A stretch of DNA of 64,000 bases from Posidoniimonas polymericola. GTDB taxonomy: Bacteria; Planctomycetota; Planctomycetia; Pirellulales; Lacipirellulaceae. The notes under the pieces were generated by a model. That model had not been told where the DNA came from and did not search any database. It worked only from the letters and a program-made list of their open reading frames with translations. A program made the position numbers and the translations under genes. The stretch is from assembly GCF_007859935.1 (NCBI RefSeq), contig NZ_SJPO01000006.1, positions 310,001-374,000 on the forward strand, in the 5' to 3' direction. Shown here piece after piece: positions 1,055-10,249 of this stretch (positions are counted from its first letter, which is position 1; the number at the start of each line of letters is the position of its first letter).

Positions 1055-2308
1055 TTAATTGTGAGGCGGCCGTTGGCTCGCCAGCAGCGACGAAACCGCA
1101 AGCGACAAGACTGCCGCGCTCGGCTCCGGCGCCATGCCGGACAGACCCCGTAGGGTCGCCTGGCCGATGGCGGGGTTTAGCTTGTTGAGCAATGCCCAGT
1201 CGGACAGGTCCGTGACGCCATCAAAGTTCAGGTCGCCTCGACGGTAGCGGCTCTCGACGCCGCCTACGCCACGCACGAGCCAGTTGTCGAGAAACGCGGT
1301 GACGTCGTCCTCCGCGGCAAGGCCTGAGCCGTCGCCCGACAGCAGGCCGTCCTGATTGACGTCGCCGGCGACTCCGTTGGGGGCAGGCACTTCCAGCCCG
1401 CGAACGGCGCCGTCGAGCCCGGCGGCAAACGGGTCGACCCCCAGATGCCAGAGCGCGGTCGCCGCAACGTCGCGGAGCGTCCCCTGCTGCAGCGAGGTCC
1501 CCGGCGCTACGCTGGGGCCGCTGGCGAAGAACGGAACCTCCCAGTTGGGCTCGCCTTGGCTGGCGTAGTGGCCGAACGCGCCCGGAGCCGCGCCGTGGTC
1601 GGCGGTGACCAGAATCAGCCAGTCCTCGGCGCCAGAGAGAACGCCGGGGCGCGCGTTGACCGCGTCAACAACGGCGCCTACCAGCGAGTCCACGCTCTCG
1701 ATGGCCAATAGGTGCTGCGGGCTCCCCCAGGAGTAGGCGTGCCCCGCGTGATCGACCTGATCGAAGTGCAGGAACAGGGCGTCCGGGTCGGTAAACCCGA
1801 GCAGGTCTGCCGCGTCGTCCGCGACGGCCTGGTCCTGTTGCTCGACCGTTCCGAGGTCGTAGCCAACCTCGATGTCTGTGTACTGATCGGGAGCGATATG
1901 GGTGTTGATCGGCGTCCAGTTGGCCAGGGAGACCGTCGTGAGCGAGCTGTCGTGCTGCTTGGCGTGCTGGAAGAAATGTGGGAATTGGTCGAAATTCTGG
2001 CCGGCGAAGCTGTTGTCGGATACACCGTGGTGCGCCGCCGATGCGCCGGTGAGGATAGTGGACCAGTTCACGCCGCTGGCGCCGTAGCCGTCCGGCGGCG
2101 ACTCTACCAAAGCGCCCTCGTTGAGGAAGTCGTATCGCGCCACGCCGGCGGCCGCCAGGGCGTCGAGGGTTGGGGTGCTCGCCTGCGTCACGTACTGGCC
2201 GCCGGCCCCGTCGATCCCGATCACCAGAACGCGGTTGCTCGCCTGCCCACGACTCTGCCAGGCAAGCACTCCCGCAACCGTCATAACAATCGTCAAATAG
2301 CGAAACAA
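1055..2308 (-). CDS. Secreted type I phosphodiesterase/nucleotide pyrophosphatase-like protein with dockerin repeats and PEP-CTERM
   Basis: This is a 417-residue alkaline-phosphatase-superfamily protein. Visible metal and catalytic motifs are GIDGAGG (Asp33), the nucleophile region NWSTILTG (Ser83/Thr84), DQVDHAGH and TADHGAAPGAFGH, which is the layout of type I phosphodiesterases and nucleotide pyrophosphatases. Two calcium-binding dockerin-like loops follow at about residues 315 (GDVNQDG) and 358 (GDLNFDGVTDLSDW). The C-terminus carries APEP at 393-396, a hydrophobic stretch and a short basic tail, so it should be an exosortase substrate. An N-terminal signal peptide is present. The gene sits between a DUF1559 gene (49-base gap) and a LamG/phosphatase gene (24-base gap) on the same strand, suggesting a small phosphoester-scavenging operon. 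The exact substrate is unknown. Confidence 0.85.
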   Translation of the reverse strand: MFRYLTIVMTVAGVLAWQSRGQASNRVLVIGIDGAGGQYVTQASTPTLDALAAAGVARYDFLNEGALVESPPDGYGASGVNWSTILTGASAAHHGVSDNSFAGQNFDQFPHFFQHAKQHDSSLTTVSLANWTPINTHIAPDQYTDIEVGYDLGTVEQQDQAVADDAADLLGFTDPDALFLHFDQVDHAGHAYSWGSPQHLLAIESVDSLVGAVVDAVNARPGVLSGAEDWLILVTADHGAAPGAFGHYASQGEPNWEVPFFASGPSVAPGTSLQQGTLRDVAATALWHLGVDPFAAGLDGAVRGLEVPAPNGVAGDVNQDGLLSGDGSGLAAEDDVTAFLDNWLVRGVGGVESRYRRGDLNFDGVTDLSDWALLNKLNPAIGQATLRGLSGMAPEPSAAVLSLAVSSLLASQRPPHN

Positions 2309-2357
2309 GAAGGCATTCTCCTCCGGCTCGCCGCCGGTGCGTGGCTAAAGCTAGTCG

Positions 2358-3491
2358 CTACCGACGGTCGGCGCCGCCGGTGCTCAGCACCTGACCGGCG
2401 CGGCTGCCAAGGTCGCTCCAGACTTCGGCCTCGATCGAGTCGTTGATCGTCTCGACGTGCCCGTCCACGAACACCATCTGCACCACGCCACCGGAATGCG
2501 AGCTGCCGAAGCTGAGCTGCAGCGCCTGGCATTCGGGCGAGGTCGCCGTGCGACAGAGCCGTTGGTTCTCCGCCGGTTCGCTCAGCAGGTTAATGCCGAC
2601 GCCTGTCGAGCCGAGGAATTCAGACGGGTCGCTGAAGTCGTTCTCGCTGCCGCTGATGGTGGTGTCGATATCGTCGCTGCCGCCGTACCAGTGGTCCTTG
2701 CGGTCGCCTTCGCGGGCCTCTTTCTCGTGACCGAGTGTCTCGTTGGTCTCAAAGTCAGAGACCGCCTCGCCAATCATCGCGGTCTTGGACGTGCCGTCGG
2801 TTATCTTGCGGAGCGCAATCGAGCCGCTCTTGCGGTCCTGTTGGTGGTGCACTCCGACCAGCACCCCGTCGGCGCCCTTGTAAAGCGGCGGGGCGTCGGG
2901 CGAACGGCGGCCGCGTATCCAGTAGGTCGGGTACTGAGATCGGATCAGGCCGGACGCGACGCCAATGTACGAGCCGGGCACCCGCTGGTTCACTACCCAG
3001 CTTACCGCCGACAGGTCGTACATGTGTTCCGGCAGACCCATCGACGGACAACGGTAGACCGGCAGCACCGTTTCGCACAGCACGATGTTCTGGTAGGTCT
3101 TCCCCAGGTCAGCGACGTTGTCGTAGGCGCCCGGGTGAGCCCATTGATAGTTGCCGTTCTTATCCTCGCCAATTTCGAGGTACTCGAACATCGACCCCTC
3201 TTCGAGGTAGGGGAGGATGAAGGCGCTCCACGCGCTGCCTTCGCCAAGATAGGTTCCCGGCGGCAGCGTGCCGTAGGTGGTTTCGTAGTTCAGGCAGGCC
3301 AGCCCCATCTGCTTCAGGCTGTTTGAGCACTGCGACCGTCGGGCCGCCTCGCGAGCGGCCTGCACCGCCGGCAGCAGGAGCGCGATGAGCACACCGATGA
3401 TGGCGATGACCACCAGCAGTTCGACCAGGGTGAAACCGACCCGCTTAGCACGGGGGAATGCTGCCGTTTCCTTGTGGCATAAATGCTGCAT
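2358..3491 (-). CDS. DUF1559 pilin-like (prepilin-type N-terminus) protein
   Basis: The 377-residue protein has the classical planctomycete DUF1559 organisation. A type IV prepilin N-terminal methylation segment near residue 19 ([20 protein letters not shown]) is followed by LLPAVQAAREAARRSQC and the DUF1559 core (LKQMGLACLNYETTYGTLPPG, ITDGTSKTAMIGE), and near the C-terminus comes the H-x9-DG type segment (VVQMVFVDGHVETIND). I chose the ATG at 3491 because a GGAG lies 8 bases upstream; a longer in-frame reading upstream shows no family similarity. It probably encodes a pseudopilin-like envelope protein; no member's precise role is established. It is the first gene of the probable operon running to position 1. 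Confidence 0.92.
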   Translation of the reverse strand: MQHLCHKETAAFPRAKRVGFTLVELLVVIAIIGVLIALLLPAVQAAREAARRSQCSNSLKQMGLACLNYETTYGTLPPGTYLGEGSAWSAFILPYLEEGSMFEYLEIGEDKNGNYQWAHPGAYDNVADLGKTYQNIVLCETVLPVYRCPSMGLPEHMYDLSAVSWVVNQRVPGSYIGVASGLIRSQYPTYWIRGRRSPDAPPLYKGADGVLVGVHHQQDRKSGSIALRKITDGTSKTAMIGEAVSDFETNETLGHEKEAREGDRKDHWYGGSDDIDTTISGSENDFSDPSEFLGSTGVGINLLSEPAENQRLCRTATSPECQALQLSFGSSHSGGVVQMVFVDGHVETINDSIEAEVWSDLGSRAGQVLSTGGADRR

Positions 3492-3542
3492 TGGGTTTGC
3501 TCCGTTGATTGCAGCGCCCGCTCTGGGCAGAGATGGGTGAGG

Positions 3543-3572
3543 ACGCCCCCCCGGGTGAGGCCGGGGGGCGTT
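3543..3572 (-). terminator. GC-rich hairpin downstream of the triple PEP-CTERM gene
   Basis: A C-run and a G-run (CGCCCCCCCGG and CCGGGGGGCG) form a long inverted repeat with a six-base loop about 40 bases after the stop at 3613. No clear T-tract follows on the minus strand, so termination is only plausible. It also lies upstream of the next minus-strand gene and separates the two transcription units. Confidence 0.45.
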
Positions 3573-3612
3573 CCGTGGCATTTTCAGGCGTTCGCGCCGG
3601 GGGCGTGAGCAC

Positions 3613-6600
3613 TCACTGCGCATCCTTCTTGATCCGACCGCGGCAGCGAGATCCGCAGCAGCCCGCAATCGCTAGCACCAGCAAGCTGGAGTTCGGCTCC
3701 GGCACGGCGCCGGTGATCAGGCGCATCGCCGCCACGCCGGCCGCCGGGTTCGCGTTGTTCAGAACCGCCCAGTCGTTAAGGTCCACCAGGCCGTCGTAGT
3801 TGAAGTCGCCGAGGGCGCGTGTCTCGAGGTCGCCGATGCGGCGGCTGGTGACGAAACCGTCGAACGGGTCGACCGAGGAGATCGTTTTCTCCGCGAGCCA
3901 GTTGCTGGCAAACAGGTTCGCGTCGGCCAGCGTTACCAGGTTGTCGCCATTGAGATCGCCGTCGACCGCCGGGGCGAACGCCTGGGCGTACTGGTTGTCG
4001 CGGGGCAAGTACCACTCGCCCCAGTCGTTCAGCACGTTGTCGCCGCCGCCCCCGATGTTGTCGTTGTCGTTCAGTCCCATGACGAACATCTCGAGGTCGT
4101 CGACGACGCCGTGGTAGTAGCGGTCGTCGTCCGGGGTGCTGCTGTTGAGGTTCCGGTCGAGGCTGTCGGCGTCGGTGCGGGCGCCGATGTAGAGCGGGCT
4201 CTGGTCGACCGCGGCGATGTTGGTGAAGTTGTCGCCCTCGCCGATGTTGACCACCGTCTCGATAGCGTAGGCGCCAAAACCGACCGCCTCGGCGACGCCG
4301 TTGACATAGAGGATCGAGCCGTTGCCGGGCCCGCGGGGGCGGACAACCGCGAGGTGGTACCACTGGTTGTCTACGGGCGAGATATCGGTCTCGTAGTCGG
4401 CTGGCGTGATCATCGGCTCGCCGGTAATCAGCTCGTCGTCTTCGGTCCCCTCGACGCCGTCCAGCCCCGGATCAATCGTGATCTCGATGTCGAACTCGCT
4501 CGCGTACCGCATCGCGAACTTTCCGTCGGAGTTGATCAGCACGCCGTGCTGCTGCGTGTCCATCACGATGTGCTGCTCGCCCGCCGCAACATCCGTCGGC
4601 TTGGTCCACAGCTGGAAGCCGCGGTCGCTGACTCGGAAGTAGTTCAGCGTGCCGGGGCCGTACTCCAAGCTGGTGAGAGTCGCCACCGAGGACGGCGACT
4701 GCTCGGGATTATTCAGCGCTTCGCTGAAGCCGGTGCGGAGGTACTGTCGCTCGAAGGTCTGCTGGTTCAGGGCGATGCCGATCCCGCCCTGGCCATCCGG
4801 CCGGTCGGTCGTGTCGACGTACTTCGGGTAGAAATTGAAGCGGCCCTTGGCGACGAGGTCGATCAGCTGGTTCGCGCCCGTCTGACCCGCGTTGTCGTAG
4901 GTTACCACGTTGCCGTTCGAGTCTGTGTTGCTCATCACCTGGCCGACGGTTGCCCCCGGGTCGACGTCGCCGAAGCCGTAGTCGCGGTCAACAAACGGGG
5001 CGGGCCCGTCGGCCTGGGCGAACGCGTGGTCGGCGCCGCCTCCTACCGCGGCCGCCACTAGCACAACCACGGCGATCGAGGGTCGTCGCCGGACCGCCAG
5101 CGCGAGCACGCCGAGCAGTCCCAGCACGGCCGCCGCTGGCTCGGGAGCCTGACCCGCCGATGCCGCCGACGAGACAGTCGCGCCGTAGTTGGCCTTCCAG
5201 AGGGCGTAGTCGGCGTTGTCGACAACGCCGGCGCTACCGCCGGCCTCGTTGCCGTTGCCCGCTAGGTCGTTGGCGGTGCCTACACTAGCCCGCCAGACGG
5301 TGTAGTCCGCGGCGTCGACGACGCCATTGCCGTTGAAGTCACCCGGCAGCGCCACCGAGAAGTAACTCACCACAACCGGGGAGAACGCCACGTCCGAGGA
5401 CTGGTCAAGCACCTGGCCGAACTGGTCCTCCTGGATGAACGCGTAGGTCAGCAGCAGGTCCTCAATGCCGCCTGGGGTAGCGAACAGGCGACCAATTTCT
5501 AGGGACTCGCCCGGCGCGATCGTCGTTTGGCCGTCGAAGAAGGCCTCGAAGACAATGCCCCCGTTGGCGACGACCGTCTCCCAGGCCTCGCCGGCGCCCG
5601 GGCCCGACTGGTCGACGCCGCGGGCGTCGAGGTTTGTGGAAGCCCACTCGGTCGGGCTGAGGTCGCCGCTCTCACTGCTGACCGAGTAGCCGGTCAGCAC
5701 CACGGGCTCGTCGCTGACGGAAACCAGCGTCGCCATGCCGGTCGTGGTGTTGACCTGCAATTCAAGCGTCGCGGGGGGGGGCGGCGGGATAAAGCGGGTG
5801 ATGGTTTCGACGTGCCGCTCACGGAACGGGGTGACCGGCGGGTTGTAGTTGTCGGTATTGATCACCCATCCCGCAGGGCCGTCCTGCGAGTAGACCGGTC
5901 CCTCGGCGGGCGGGTTGTTCTCGTCGATTGGGTCGCCGAGAACAACGCTCTCGAAATCCTCCGTGAAGAGCGATCCGGTGTTGCCGCTCACGCTGATGTT
6001 GTCGATCGCCCACCACCAGTCATTGGTGGCGTTGAACATGTTGAAGCCGAGCTGCATCGTGGAAGCGCCACCGGAGTCCGGGAGGGTGATGGTGACCATC
6101 TCGTTGGGGGCGTCGTCCTTGAAGTTCGCGCTGAGCGGGTCGGAGCTCCACTGGAAGACTTCGGTCGCAACGCCGTCGTAGAAGACGTCCAGGCTCGCGC
6201 CCTGCGTGTCCTCGTCCCGCCAGCTAGACGCAAACGAGAGGGTCAGCGAGTTCGCGCCGACCCCGCTGATATTGATCGCCGGGCTGCGTAGCTGGGTGTT
6301 CAGGGTCGTGGCGCCACCGGGGCCGCCGATGTCGTCCCACTCGTCCGGGTCGGCGATCGCCACAACGCCCGAGCCGAGGGTGAACTGCGAACGCTGCTGG
6401 TCGCCGGCGACGTCGGACCACCATTCGCGGTCGGCAAACGCCCACTCCTCCCACTCCGTCACGCCGACGCCGTCGCTGAGCCTTTGGGCCTGGGCCTGTT
6501 GGGCGGGCACGGCGAGCAAGATCAACGCCAGTGCGGCGATCAAACCGGGAGCGACCCGCGGCTTCCGCCGCAGCAGCAGACCGACGCCCGCGACCGCGAG

Positions 6601-8025
6601 GACCGCGGCGGTGGCCGGCTCGGGCACGGCGGCGGAACTCAGCATGGCCGAGAAGGCGCCGGCTCCGACAGCGGCGTCAAACGCCCTGCGGAAGGTGGCG
6701 AAGTCGGCGGCGTTGAGACGGCCGTCGTCGTTGAGGTCGCCCTTCAGGTAGGCCTGGGCGGTCGGGAGGTCAGAGAGGTTGGCGGTGTCGGTGATCGCGA
6801 TGAACTCCGACCAGTCGCCAATATCGACCGCGCCGTCAAAGTTGAGATCCAGGAATTCGAACGACGCCCCACCGTTGCCGACAAACTCGACGACGCCTTC
6901 GATCTGATCGTCGCTCCCGTCTATCAGGTAGTGGAACGCGACATCGCCGCTTTCCTCGAAGTACCGCAGCCAGACGTCCGATCCGAAATCGATCGTCTCT
7001 CCGGCGGCGAGCGTGGCGGCGCTGAGGTGGACTTCCGAGAGGTCGTTGATCTGTCCACCCACCTGGGTTGCTTGGACCCAGCTGGAGTCGGTGGCGGAGA
7101 GGAAGCTAGCCGCTCCTTCGTCGAAGGCCCCTTCCTCCGAGGTGATTGAGTACCCCCGCAGTTGAACCGCCGCGCCGGTGTTGTTGGTGATGGTCACTTC
7201 GCCGGTGTCGCGGTCGAGCACCGCGCGGAGGACGCCATCTGCCCCGGTGGCGTCCCCGGTGTAGGCCCGCACGTTGTCGACCGCCCACCACCAGTCATTA
7301 TTACCCTGCAGACGGAACTCGAACTGCACGTTGCTCGCCCCGGCGGGGATCGAATGGAGTGTGTAGGTCAGGCTCTCGTCGAAGGCCTCGTTCTTGAAGT
7401 TCGGATCGGCCACATCCGAGGTCCAGGTGTCAAGCACCTCGACCGCGCCGTTGTTGTAGCGGGCGGTGACGGTGGCGGTCTGCTGGTCCTCGTCGAACCA
7501 TGAGGAGCTGAACGCCAGCCGCACGGGCTCGGTGACGCCGCTAATCGAGACCGTCGGGGTGATCAAGGTCGAGTCAAAAACCCCGTCCAACGGGTCCAAG
7601 TCGCTTTCGCTACTGCCGCTGGGATTGCCAAAGTCGTCCCACTCGTCGGGGTCGGCGACCGCGATGGTGCCCACGCCGCTGACGAAGTTTGAGCGACCCT
7701 GATCGCCGGCGGTCTCGATCCACCATTGCTTGTCGACGAACCGCCAGCCCTCGAATTCGAGGACGCCGCTCTCGGTGTTCCCGACGGAGGTCGTCAGGTT
7801 TAGTTCGGTCCAGCCGGTCGGCCCGTTCGCGCCTACCTGCTGCCAGGCCTCGCGGCTGCGGAGCTCCGACTCGAAGGTCACGGTCGGCTGAAGGGTCACG
7901 CCCTCGAAGTCCTCGTACAGGAGGTCGACCGCTGGCGCGTAGCCGCAGGCAGAGAAAGTGACCGCCAAGGAGGCCGCCCGTACAGATCGAGCGAGCCGTC
8001 GCAACAAGATGGACGTGTGGTTCAT
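3613..8025 (-). CDS. 1470-residue surface protein with three PEP-CTERM signals in tandem (polyprotein-like)
   Basis: The start is taken at the ATG at 8025, which opens a signal peptide (LLRRLARSVRAASLAVTFSA). Unit 1 (about 1-490): a WWWAVDN-type jelly-roll module (36-256), a lamin-tail-like beta domain, dockerin repeats (LNFDGAVDIGDW, GDLNDDGRLNAADF), VPEP at 467-470, a hydrophobic helix and RRK. Unit 2 (about 491-980): a second hydrophobic, signal-peptide-like segment ending AQAQ (493-514), an N-terminally shortened jelly-roll module, the beginning of another one (688-722), a lamin-tail-like domain, dockerin repeats (GDFNGNGVVDAADY), APEP at 960-963, a helix and RRRP. Unit 3 (about 981-1470): another signal-peptide-like segment ending AFAQ (985-1004), LamG (about 1125-1320), dockerin repeats and a terminal VPEP at 1441-1444. 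No stop codon interrupts the chain. Normal PEP-CTERM proteins have a single C-terminal signal, so this looks like three exported proteins fused end to end. Confidence 0.88.
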   Translation of the reverse strand: MNHTSILLRRLARSVRAASLAVTFSACGYAPAVDLLYEDFEGVTLQPTVTFESELRSREAWQQVGANGPTGWTELNLTTSVGNTESGVLEFEGWRFVDKQWWIETAGDQGRSNFVSGVGTIAVADPDEWDDFGNPSGSSESDLDPLDGVFDSTLITPTVSISGVTEPVRLAFSSSWFDEDQQTATVTARYNNGAVEVLDTWTSDVADPNFKNEAFDESLTYTLHSIPAGASNVQFEFRLQGNNDWWWAVDNVRAYTGDATGADGVLRAVLDRDTGEVTITNNTGAAVQLRGYSITSEEGAFDEGAASFLSATDSSWVQATQVGGQINDLSEVHLSAATLAAGETIDFGSDVWLRYFEESGDVAFHYLIDGSDDQIEGVVEFVGNGGASFEFLDLNFDGAVDIGDWSEFIAITDTANLSDLPTAQAYLKGDLNDDGRLNAADFATFRRAFDAAVGAGAFSAMLSSAAVPEPATAAVLAVAGVGLLLRRKPRVAPGLIAALALILLAVPAQQAQAQRLSDGVGVTEWEEWAFADREWWSDVAGDQQRSQFTLGSGVVAIADPDEWDDIGGPGGATTLNTQLRSPAINISGVGANSLTLSFASSWRDEDTQGASLDVFYDGVATEVFQWSSDPLSANFKDDAPNEMVTITLPDSGGASTMQLGFNMFNATNDWWWAIDNISVSGNTGSLFTEDFESVVLGDPIDENNPPAEGPVYSQDGPAGWVINTDNYNPPVTPFRERHVETITRFIPPPPPATLELQVNTTTGMATLVSVSDEPVVLTGYSVSSESGDLSPTEWASTNLDARGVDQSGPGAGEAWETVVANGGIVFEAFFDGQTTIAPGESLEIGRLFATPGGIEDLLLTYAFIQEDQFGQVLDQSSDVAFSPVVVSYFSVALPGDFNGNGVVDAADYTVWRASVGTANDLAGNGNEAGGSAGVVDNADYALWKANYGATVSSAASAGQAPEPAAAVLGLLGVLALAVRRRPSIAVVVLVAAAVGGGADHAFAQADGPAPFVDRDYGFGDVDPGATVGQVMSNTDSNGNVVTYDNAGQTGANQLIDLVAKGRFNFYPKYVDTTDRPDGQGGIGIALNQQTFERQYLRTGFSEALNNPEQSPSSVATLTSLEYGPGTLNYFRVSDRGFQLWTKPTDVAAGEQHIVMDTQQHGVLINSDGKFAMRYASEFDIEITIDPGLDGVEGTEDDELITGEPMITPADYETDISPVDNQWYHLAVVRPRGPGNGSILYVNGVAEAVGFGAYAIETVVNIGEGDNFTNIAAVDQSPLYIGARTDADSLDRNLNSSTPDDDRYYHGVVDDLEMFVMGLNDNDNIGGGGDNVLNDWGEWYLPRDNQYAQAFAPAVDGDLNGDNLVTLADANLFASNWLAEKTISSVDPFDGFVTSRRIGDLETRALGDFNYDGLVDLNDWAVLNNANPAAGVAAMRLITGAVPEPNSSLLVLAIAGCCGSRCRGRIKKDAQ

Positions 8026-8138
8026 GGTGAGAGCTTCGAAAGGACCGTGAGGTTCAAGGGCGTTATGGGGGGCGGCGTTCTTCGTGAACACGATGCCTTT
8101 GGTTGGCCTAGAGCACATGGCGGCGACACTCAGAAAGT

Positions 8139-8170
8139 CCCCGCCGCCGCGACGACGCGCGGCGGCGGGG
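8139..8170 (-). terminator. Perfect 13-bp hairpin, probable terminator
   Basis: CCCCGCCGCCGCG (8139-8151) and its exact complement (8158-8170) enclose a six-base loop 11 bases beyond the stop at 8182. On the minus strand the stem is followed by ACTTTCTG, a weak T-rich stretch. It most likely ends transcription of the 552-residue PEP-CTERM gene and separates it from the triple PEP-CTERM gene. Confidence 0.7.
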
Positions 8171-8181
8171 CAGCAATCAGG

Positions 8182-9840
8182 CTAGCGCTTGCGGCGCGAG
8201 ACAAGGCCCAAACCGTTGATGGCGGCGAGCACGAGCAGACCTGCCGACGGCTCGGGGATGGCGCCCGAACGAACCTGCAGGTTGTCCACGGCCCACCACC
8301 AGTCGTCACTGCCGGCGTAGGAGAACTCGAACTCGACCGACAAGACGCCCGTCGTGTCGATCACGAACATCAGGTTCTCGTTCACAGCGGACGGTTTGTA
8401 GTCGGCCGCGGCGCTATCGCTGCTCCAGCTGAACAGCTCCTGCGCTACGCCGTCCAAGTAGGCGACCAGGCTGGCGGCCTGGCTGTCTTCCGGACGCCAG
8501 CTCGAGTCGAAATCGAACGTGATGGTGTCTTCCGACGATACGTCGATCGCAGGCGAACGCATAAATGTAGTGAGCTCGTCTACGCCGTCGGCGTCGGGGT
8601 TGCCGATGTCGTCCCACTCGTCGCCGTCGGCCACTGCGACGGCGCCGCTGGCGTTGTCGAACTGATTGCGGCTAGAGCCGCCCACCTCGGCCCAAAAATC
8701 CTTATCGGTGATGCTCCACTGCTCCCACTCGAGGACACCGAAGGCGTCGTCGCCGCCGCCGGCGCCGGGAGTCCCGGCGTTGCCGGTGCTCCAGCCCGCC
8801 GGGAAATCGTGGGTGTAGGCGTTCGGCACCGATTGGGTTGGGTAGTCAACGCCGAGGATGTTCGTCACCCCGGTAGAGGGCGTCGTGACGTTGGCTCCGG
8901 CGGCCAGACGCTCGTTGACGCTGTCGCCGAGCGTGACCCCCTCGAAATCTTCGAAGAACACCCGACCCTGGCCACCGCCGAGGTCGTTCACCTCAATATT
9001 GTCGACGGCCCACCACCAGTCGTTGCCGCCGTTGGCCAATTTGAAGGTCAGCGTAGCGCTAGTGGCGTCGCCGGGGGCGACGAACGCCGGCCCCGAGCCG
9101 TCTCCCGGGAAATTCTCATCCGCGGCGTCATCTTTGAAGTCCCCATCAGCGCTGTCCGAATTCCACTTCAGGAAGCTCTCTGAAAAGCCGGTGTTGTAGG
9201 TAACGATCACCTCGACGGCCTGGTTGTTGAGGTCGACGTAGGTGTCGCCCAGGGCGGAGTCGTCGAATGCCTCGTCGCGCCAGCTCGAGTCGAAGCCGAC
9301 GCCATGCGGCAGGCCGCCGGAAACCGGGAACGACGGGGTGGTCATCGCGGTGCTGTAGTAGCCGCCGTTGACCGGGTCGTTCTGGCTGCCGAGGTCGAAG
9401 TACTCGTCCGGGTCGGCGATCGCCACGGTGCCGGAGGCGCCGCTGGTCGTGCCGAACTGCGAGCGGTCCTGGTCGCCGGCGGCGGCAGACCAGAATTCCT
9501 TGCTGGCGAAACCCCATCCATCCCACTCGTCGACACCGTAGTCGGCCAAGCCGGTGCCCGGGACGCCCGGGGTTACCGTGGCCGCGCCGTCGTAGGTGCT
9601 CACTGTGTTGTCAACAGTCCAGCCCGCAGGGCCGGTGGCGCTCCAGACGCCGGCAATCGGCGAGGTGCCGGGCTCAGTCGCGACATTTTCCGAGATCGCC
9701 GCACCAACGCGCTCGTTGGTGCTGTCCTGCAGGGTCACGCCCTCAAAGTCTTCGGACCAGAGAACCGTACCGTACTGGGCGTGCGCTGCCCCTCCCAACA
9801 AAACCGCGCACATCGCGCCACTCGCTAGTCTCCTGAGCAT
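8182..9840 (-). CDS. PEP-CTERM surface protein with two tandem WWWAVDN jelly-roll modules
   Basis: This is a 552-residue secreted protein starting at the ATG at 9840 (upstream GGGAGAGAG), with a signal peptide ending AAHAQ. It consists almost entirely of two copies of one module (about 27-286 and 295-526). Each copy has EDFEGVTL at its start, a GWxxxxKxFW(S/A) segment, R(S/N)QF, a GxVAxADxDE stretch, FDSSWR and a closing DWWWAVDN. The same module occurs in the neighbouring 1470-residue protein. The closing W(A)xDN(I/V) strand resembles the so-called choice-of-anchor J/MAM-like surface domains, but that assignment is by eye. The C-terminus has IPEP near 528-531, a hydrophobic stretch and SRRKR, so it should be an exosortase substrate. 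A role in adhesion or binding is a guess. Confidence 0.88.
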   Translation of the reverse strand: MLRRLASGAMCAVLLGGAAHAQYGTVLWSEDFEGVTLQDSTNERVGAAISENVATEPGTSPIAGVWSATGPAGWTVDNTVSTYDGAATVTPGVPGTGLADYGVDEWDGWGFASKEFWSAAAGDQDRSQFGTTSGASGTVAIADPDEYFDLGSQNDPVNGGYYSTAMTTPSFPVSGGLPHGVGFDSSWRDEAFDDSALGDTYVDLNNQAVEVIVTYNTGFSESFLKWNSDSADGDFKDDAADENFPGDGSGPAFVAPGDATSATLTFKLANGGNDWWWAVDNIEVNDLGGGQGRVFFEDFEGVTLGDSVNERLAAGANVTTPSTGVTNILGVDYPTQSVPNAYTHDFPAGWSTGNAGTPGAGGGDDAFGVLEWEQWSITDKDFWAEVGGSSRNQFDNASGAVAVADGDEWDDIGNPDADGVDELTTFMRSPAIDVSSEDTITFDFDSSWRPEDSQAASLVAYLDGVAQELFSWSSDSAAADYKPSAVNENLMFVIDTTGVLSVEFEFSYAGSDDWWWAVDNLQVRSGAIPEPSAGLLVLAAINGLGLVSRRKR

Positions 9841-10249
9841 GACTCTCTCCCTGGGGTGCGTAACATCGGAACCGATCGGGGCCCAGCCAGCATCGCGAGC
9901 GACTGATGACCTCCCCTGCGTCAACGGCCAGGATGATGAGGTTTAAATGTGAAGATCTCTCGTTGGAAATCGAGCAAATCGTGTTAATCACAGATTTTGA
10001 TGCGTGTCACCGCGCCGGAATTGACCAACAGCGCACGCCGACCAGCCAAATTGCCTTTTTGGCGGCGGCGGGAAACCACGGCGACGCTCCTCCCAATTCA
10101 CCGGCCGGCAGATCGCAGGCGAGCAACGCCTCGTAGCGCCGCGGCACACAATGTCAAATCGTTTGCGCAGGATCACCACGACCGAGTCAAAGATCGCGTC
10201 TACGATCGCAGTGCCCGAAAACGCGACGCCAATTCAGCGAGGAGTAACC
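9841..10249. other. Divergent intergenic region between surface-protein and phosphonate genes
   Basis: These 409 bases separate a minus-strand PEP-CTERM gene from the plus-strand phosphonate genes and must hold both promoters. The part at about 9930-10000 is clearly more AT-rich than its surroundings. I see no convincing repeat, riboswitch or paired promoter boxes. Confidence 0.5.

Follow-up and report, generated by a model that had tools for sequence, protein, structure and literature searches.

A likely PEP-CTERM polyprotein with internal signal peptides in Posidoniimonas polymericola and similar fused genes in the Pirellulales

Bacteria rarely make cellular polyproteins, and by definition a sorting tag lies at the C-terminus. 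What is made, then, from a single open frame that carries three PEP-CTERM tags? Such a frame lies on the minus strand of the window, a 64,000-nucleotide stretch of the Posidoniimonas polymericola genome, where the open reading frame list gives 1501 codons without a stop from position 8118 to 3613. Known PEP-CTERMs sit close to the extreme C-terminus, 87% of them with fewer than ten further residues, according to Haft et al. 2006 (PMC1569441). A previous sequence-only reading took the frame for three units, each joined to the signal peptide of the next and released by proteolysis. We consider it likely that the gene encodes a bacterial PEP-CTERM polyprotein in which stop-transfer segments alternate with internal signal segments and which signal peptidase and exosortase cut apart. 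The single frame, the alternation of putative signals and their conservation are observations, and the cleavage is an inference.

Alignment with ten orthologues places the likely start at the ATG at 8025. The gene with its three PEP-CTERM units accordingly spans 3613..8025 (minus strand, as do all window features below) and comprises 1470 codons and the stop. By inspection, without a predictor, this ATG is followed by a signal-like segment with a basic n-region and a hydrophobic stretch, and residues 1-32 (7930..8025) were read as the N-terminal signal peptide with a probable cut after APA. The mature part of unit 1 (residues 33-466; 6628..7929) contains a domain recognized by its sequence motif, for which we coined the name NDWWW, a type I dockerin and an LTD-like region below cut-off. 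It is followed by the first internal PEP motif (VPEP, 467-470; 6616..6627), the putative stop-transfer PEP-CTERM helix 1 (471-485; 6571..6615), which is matched by PF07589 and TIGR02595, and the arginine cluster RRKPR (486-490; 6556..6570), which would serve both as tail of unit 1 and as n-region of internal signal peptide 1 (491-513; 6487..6555). The latter ends in AQA and is supported by sequence, alignment and AxA enrichment. Junction 1 is VPEP-ATAAVLAVAGVGLLL-RRKPR-VAPGLIAALALILLAVPAQQ-AQA.

Unit 2 (mature residues 514-959; 5149..6486) holds an NDWWW beta-sandwich, whose fold in a low-confidence model weakly resembles MAM and CBM domains, and, as judged by eye, may also hold LTD-like and dockerin-like regions. 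Behind it lie the second internal PEP motif (APEP, 960-963; 5137..5148), helix 2 (964-978; 5092..5136) and the arginine cluster RRRPS (979-983; 5077..5091), the latter two assigned by sequence, and internal signal peptide 2 (984-1003; 5017..5076), which ends in AFA and is likewise supported by sequence and AxA enrichment. Junction 2 is APEP-AAAVLGLLGVLALAV-RRRPS-IAVVVLVAAAVGGGADH-AFA. Unit 3 (mature residues 1004-1440; 3706..5016) is possibly LamG/ConA-like and dockerin-like, an inference for which a Pfam search of the unit returned no LamG match. The protein ends with the C-terminal PEP-CTERM (VPEP 1441-1444, helix and basic tail; 3616..3705). Since this last PEP occupies the usual C-terminal place, the gene has two internal junctions. 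The three PEP positions given by the sequence-only reading, and the succession that it described after the first two (a helix, arginines, another helix and an AxA site), are borne out by the translated frame.

Over the whole protein, TIGR02595 scores 30.1 bits (cut-off 16) and PF07589 33.7 bits (cut-off 20.7), each in two stretches; Pfam and NCBIfam assign PEP-CTERM and dockerin domains, and most of the remainder has no named domain. The succession of PEP, hydrophobic helix and basic cluster that marks PEP-CTERMs is present, and the extreme C-terminal position is met by unit 3 alone, the tags of units 1 and 2 being internal. As expected of a polyprotein, several complete units share one open frame, and internal signal peptides with protease sites are present as far as sequence features can tell. 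A structure model of unit 3 was discarded (mean pLDDT 49). For junction plus unit 2 the model reached a mean pLDDT of 61 with low-coverage matches, the best to a zymogen of the Bacillus peptidase InhA2 (E 1.7e-7, TM 0.19 by query) and the next to MAM-bearing and CBM entries; it was not used as evidence for cleavage.

Homologues were sought in 97 genomes (the window's own and its relatives) and, by one pattern search, in the genome_contigs collection (the 80 best of 198 retained). This yielded frames of 1422 to 1570 residues with the same three units, among others in Lacipirellula limnantheis and in Aeoliella straminimaris (Lacipirellulaceae, Pirellulales, Planctomycetota). Counting the window frame, 11 full frames were aligned, and none of the 11 departs from PEP at any of the three sites. 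Majority-residue identity in these frames is 0.49 and 0.42 for the two hairpins, compared to 0.65, 0.50 and 0.60 for the units. With the PEP invariant while the helices diverge, the pattern is retained as its letters change. The presence of the fused frame in the separate assemblies of ten other genomes excludes a frameshift or lost-stop error as its cause, which speaks against the refuting condition that the sequence-only reading had named for itself, a stop or frameshift at a junction. Relative to G001, a genome of the same genus, pN/pS is 0.43 and 0.51 in the hairpins and 0.82 in the C-terminal tail; relative to the more distant G021 the values are 0.68 and 0.91, and 0.69. The units range from 0.25 to 0.32. 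The hairpins evolve like weakly constrained coding sequence, with a weaker signal against G021, which fits signal peptides and sorting tails, the ordinary C-terminal tail being similar.

The groupings of the 11 in the unit 1 and unit 3 trees are compatible, which fits a locus inherited in one piece. All 11 loci have a stand-alone PEP-CTERM gene on the upstream side and, downstream, a gene whose product bears a prepilin leader motif. In the window these conserved neighbours are a PEP-CTERM gene with two NDWWW domains (8182..9924) and a DUF1559 prepilin-like gene (open frame 2358..3668; start likely the ATG near 3491, read by eye); DUF1559 was confirmed by Pfam for the window copy, and the genes at the other loci were recognized by the prepilin leader motif. 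At 1055-9924 the window has the conserved locus of stand-alone PEP-CTERM gene, polyprotein gene and DUF1559 gene, with a phosphodiesterase-like protein that carries a C-terminal PEP coming next there.

The sequence-only reading had also proposed a search for either the fused chain or three separate adjacent genes. The fused chain was found, and a trio of adjacent, separate PEP-CTERM genes occurs in G004 (L133), without shown orthology to a fused gene. We looked for a clean pair of orthologues, one of them fused and the other, in a second genome, divided at the same junction, and found none. In G018, unit 1 is split off and the next gene has an overlapping GTG start; we rejected this split as proof of fission, since G018 sits on a very long branch in both unit trees and is a distant relative for which fission remains unproven. 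There, the end of the PEP-CTERM gene overlaps the start of the next gene (GTGGTTAA; L115:6100-6420), with an AAAGGAG site within the arginine codons, and a prepilin-type gene likewise lies downstream.

The phenomenon is far larger than one gene. Merging overlapping loci, we counted 81 genes with 134 junctions and 2 to 10 units each in the loci examined, one of the 134 junctions being prepilin-type; the window and loci L001-L114 account for 25 genes with 39 junctions. As the loci from L138 on were mostly chosen by a junction profile or for long open frames, these totals give no unbiased rate. The 28 rows of the profile were picked for compact junctions with AxA-like ends, and its invariant Ala is therefore no evidence. 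Within the window's family the profile matched in 43/43 genomes at E 1e-4, the matches listed mixing complete junctions with ordinary C-terminal matches. In the order, at least 124 of 396 genomes had a match at 1e-7, and among the matches listed genes were read in nine Pirellulales families (f1, f2, f4, f7, f11, f13, f14, f17 and f19). A sample of the phylum gave a match in 9 of 392 genomes at 3e-8; own genome aside, complete junctions occurred in two of them (G472, f77, and G554, f96), both confirmed by reading, and such junctions are thus apparently rare outside the order. Outside the phylum, none of 57 matches at E 1e-5, found in 10 of 17 mostly verrucomicrobial genomes, was a complete stop-free junction. 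In the window's own genome, where 150 of 716 candidates were scored, the profile gave 137 matches at E 0.01, of which 10 are long, stop-free junctions; the loci read there hold 12 junctions in 10 genes.

Some of these frames are very long. G068 (f11) has one of at least 2531 residues with ten PF07589 stretches (L168:3-7595) and another of 2298 residues with eight PEP-CTERM units (L169:561-7454). In both, the PEP helices are alike and the signal segments different; the ten-unit frame also has LamG and F5/8 type C matches. A frame of 2427 residues in G086, with seven PF07589 stretches and six sulfatase-modifying-factor (FGE) stretches (L173:3594-10874), is apparently a polyprotein of paralogues.

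A second helix is present at 133 of 137 strict internal PEP-CTERM sites (at least 150 residues after the site; second-helix score of at least 1.8), compared to 7.1% of 1,289 control windows drawn from the same frames; a spurious site in L089 had been removed before counting. Four internal PEP sites stayed under the cut-off, L077 and L120 clearly, L085 (1.75) and L235 (1.79) narrowly. In the loci that preceded the profile (up to L137), a second helix occurred at 53 of 56 sites at a cut-off of 1.75. The loop between the helices has a median of 4 basic residues (minimum 2) and a median of 0 acidic ones. Within 20 residues from mid-core onward, AxA follows the second helix at 107 of 136 junctions (500 shuffles: mean 72, maximum 86), the prepilin-type junction of L225 having been left out of this and the start counts, hence 136 instead of 137. 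After the PEP helix there is no enrichment (60 versus 56 expected from shuffles). N-terminal signal-like segments occur in 94 of 122 stand-alone PEP-CTERM frames, and 68 of these 94 have AxA versus 46; the enrichment at the second helix resembles that of these putative N-terminal signal peptides. A strict AxA is missing at 29 of the 136 junctions. The relaxed motif [AVSTLGCI]xA was uninformative (136/136, shuffles mean 130), and exosortase helices were too few to serve as a control for AxA (3/10).

Examples of stand-alone homologues carry an N-terminal signal peptide where the fused copies carry the internal one, as in L070 (...GAAQAQ-VIFSEDFEG) beside a frame of G011 (...ATDADAQ-LVLLSEDFEG). 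The 17 stand-alone N-termini had been pre-filtered for AxA and are therefore examples only, which give no rate; another scan for stand-alone homologues gave, among the matches listed, mostly interior domain matches. In G001, G021 and the window, unit 2 begins with a shortened domain (AQRLSDGVGVTEWEEW; 6400-6487 in the window), and in the other orthologues it has the full EDFE start after the cut site. For the three with the missing domain start, the comparison is thus indirect. Taken together, the invariant PEP, the diverging helices, the AxA enrichment and the matching position of the signal in stand-alone homologues agree with the earlier interpretation as far as it can be tested on sequence.

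We also considered where translation might start. Before the second helix, the range examined at the two window junctions contains neither an ATG nor a Shine-Dalgarno-like site, in keeping with the single chain that the sequence-only reading had proposed; the only in-frame candidates there are TTG and GTG. Overall, an in-frame ATG, GTG or TTG precedes the second helix at 108 of 136 junctions (ATG in 34), and by a looser count a Shine-Dalgarno-like site occurs at 17 of 136. Such a site is combined with a start at 2 of 110 compact junctions versus 12 of the 26 that have a long linker (p = 1.4e-8 by Fisher's test), and in L033, L036 and L024/L045 site and start are clearly in frame. Polyprotein genes may have arisen by in-frame joining of neighbouring PEP-CTERM genes, the early products retaining a ribosome-binding site and a start within an extended linker and the later ones having a compact junction. 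Long-linker junctions would then be younger fusions of neighbouring genes, at which internal initiation may still operate, and compact junctions settled polyproteins. The two classes suggest a route from operon to polyprotein.

For the window gene, we propose that one mRNA frame would be translated into one chain whose export is opened by the N-terminal signal peptide. The first PEP-CTERM helix would halt transfer and, by the positive-inside rule, leave the arginine cluster inside the cell, where it would double as n-region of the internal signal peptide and let export restart; this cycle would be repeated at junction 2. Cuts are inferred behind AQA and AFA for signal peptidase I, and at, or close to, each PEP for exosortase. 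The predicted products are three mature surface proteins in equal amounts and two discarded helix-Arg-helix remnants. The window's genome has three exosortase genes (PF09721) and the gene or genes for signal peptidase I (PF10502), and an exosortase was present in 10/10 other tested genomes with such fused genes. A 2025 abstract terms the bacterial role of exosortase hypothetical (PMC12188702).

Cleavage at both kinds of site is not the only way to account for such a frame. Signal peptidase could cut the internal signals while exosortase skips the internal PEPs, leaving units 1 and 2 anchored by hairpin remnants. Haft et al. 2006 (PMC1569441) wrote that the handful of PEP-CTERMs whose tails are dramatically longer may not function. 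This option remains unlikely, however, as the internal PEP is invariant in 11/11 frames and, according to a statement in PMC11980579, mid-protein sorting tags do function elsewhere, in other sorting systems; for these genes, the conservation of the internal PEPs argues against the idea of non-functional long-tailed tags. If neither enzyme acted at the junctions, the product would be one polytopic surface protein, its exported domains joined by membrane hairpins with PEP and AxA as leftovers. Such a topology works without cuts, no cleavage has been observed, and the low-confidence model has two predicted junction helices, but we find this quite unlikely: the internal PEPs are as invariant as the C-terminal one (11/11), and there is AxA enrichment behind the second helix but not behind the PEP helix, whereas an uncut linker needs neither signal.

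Planctomycete starts without a Shine-Dalgarno site are possible. Internal starts could yield separate proteins, the fused frame being incidental, and the TTG and GTG at the window junctions, the starts at 108 of 136 junctions and the sites kept at 12 of 26 long-linker junctions elsewhere would permit this. The lack of an ATG or Shine-Dalgarno-like site in the range examined makes it very improbable for the window gene, whose upstream frame, having no stop at the junction, would read on even with an internal start. Long open frames arise easily here, and the window has many long antisense ones, yet a sequencing error, chance read-through or a decaying relic is scarcely conceivable given the fused frame in ten other genomes' assemblies, the 81 genes and the 7.1% in control windows.

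The preferred reading, a polyprotein cut by signal peptidase and exosortase, shares features with known systems. The cytochrome b/c1 polyprotein FbcH of Bradyrhizobium is a bacterial polyprotein whose internal signal sequence is cut by signal peptidase; it differs in comprising respiratory membrane proteins with one junction and neither sorting tag nor exosortase. In viral structural polyproteins with tethered internal signal peptides, stop-transfer segments likewise alternate with signal segments and host signal peptidase does the cutting, in the eukaryotic ER and without exosortase. The window's bacterium and its relatives with such genes seem to produce some of their surface proteins in polyprotein form, like some viruses. 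With the PEP-CTERM/exosortase (EpsH) system (PF07589, TIGR02595, PF09721) the window gene shares PEP, helix and basic cluster, exported proteins with signal peptides and genomic exosortases, but its tags recur along a single chain, where they are fused to internal signal peptides. The sequence-only reading knew of no described PEP-CTERM polyprotein, and the open-access literature searched agrees, as we found no description there of one or of a multiple or internal PEP-CTERM architecture. The claim is to be qualified by internal MYXO-CTERM motifs, which are known as rare cases; one, in MXAN_5598, is proposed to be processed (PMC11980579). This protein of the myxosortase system likewise has a sorting tag inside one frame, thought to be a two-gene fusion, but differs in tag, protease and its two parts, and the sections available mention neither repeated units nor an internal signal peptide (PMC11980579).

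Recurrent conserved internal tags would mean that exosortase accepts internal sites, which would fix the stoichiometry of surface proteins per translation event. Giant 'PEP-CTERM proteins' would be explained, several proteins perhaps really being made. The polyprotein would give exosortase, a protease whose chemistry in bacteria has hardly been tested, a natural test substrate that brings its own size markers. The design, widely recurrent within one order, is directly testable.

For the Pirellulales as a whole, we lean towards the view that part of the surface proteome is made as true polyproteins of up to 10 proteins, whose maturation would take at least two proteases: signal peptidase I, exosortase and, for a PEP-CTERM/DUF1559 fusion, prepilin peptidase. 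This fusion lies on contig C15 of the window's genome (L225:2267-4930), where a PEP-CTERM protein and a DUF1559 protein share one frame and are linked by a type IV prepilin leader (VPEP...RRRRPTARRVGFTLVELL). To mature, the fusion would depend on prepilin peptidase in place of signal peptidase I, which suggests that other export signals may form the second half of a junction.
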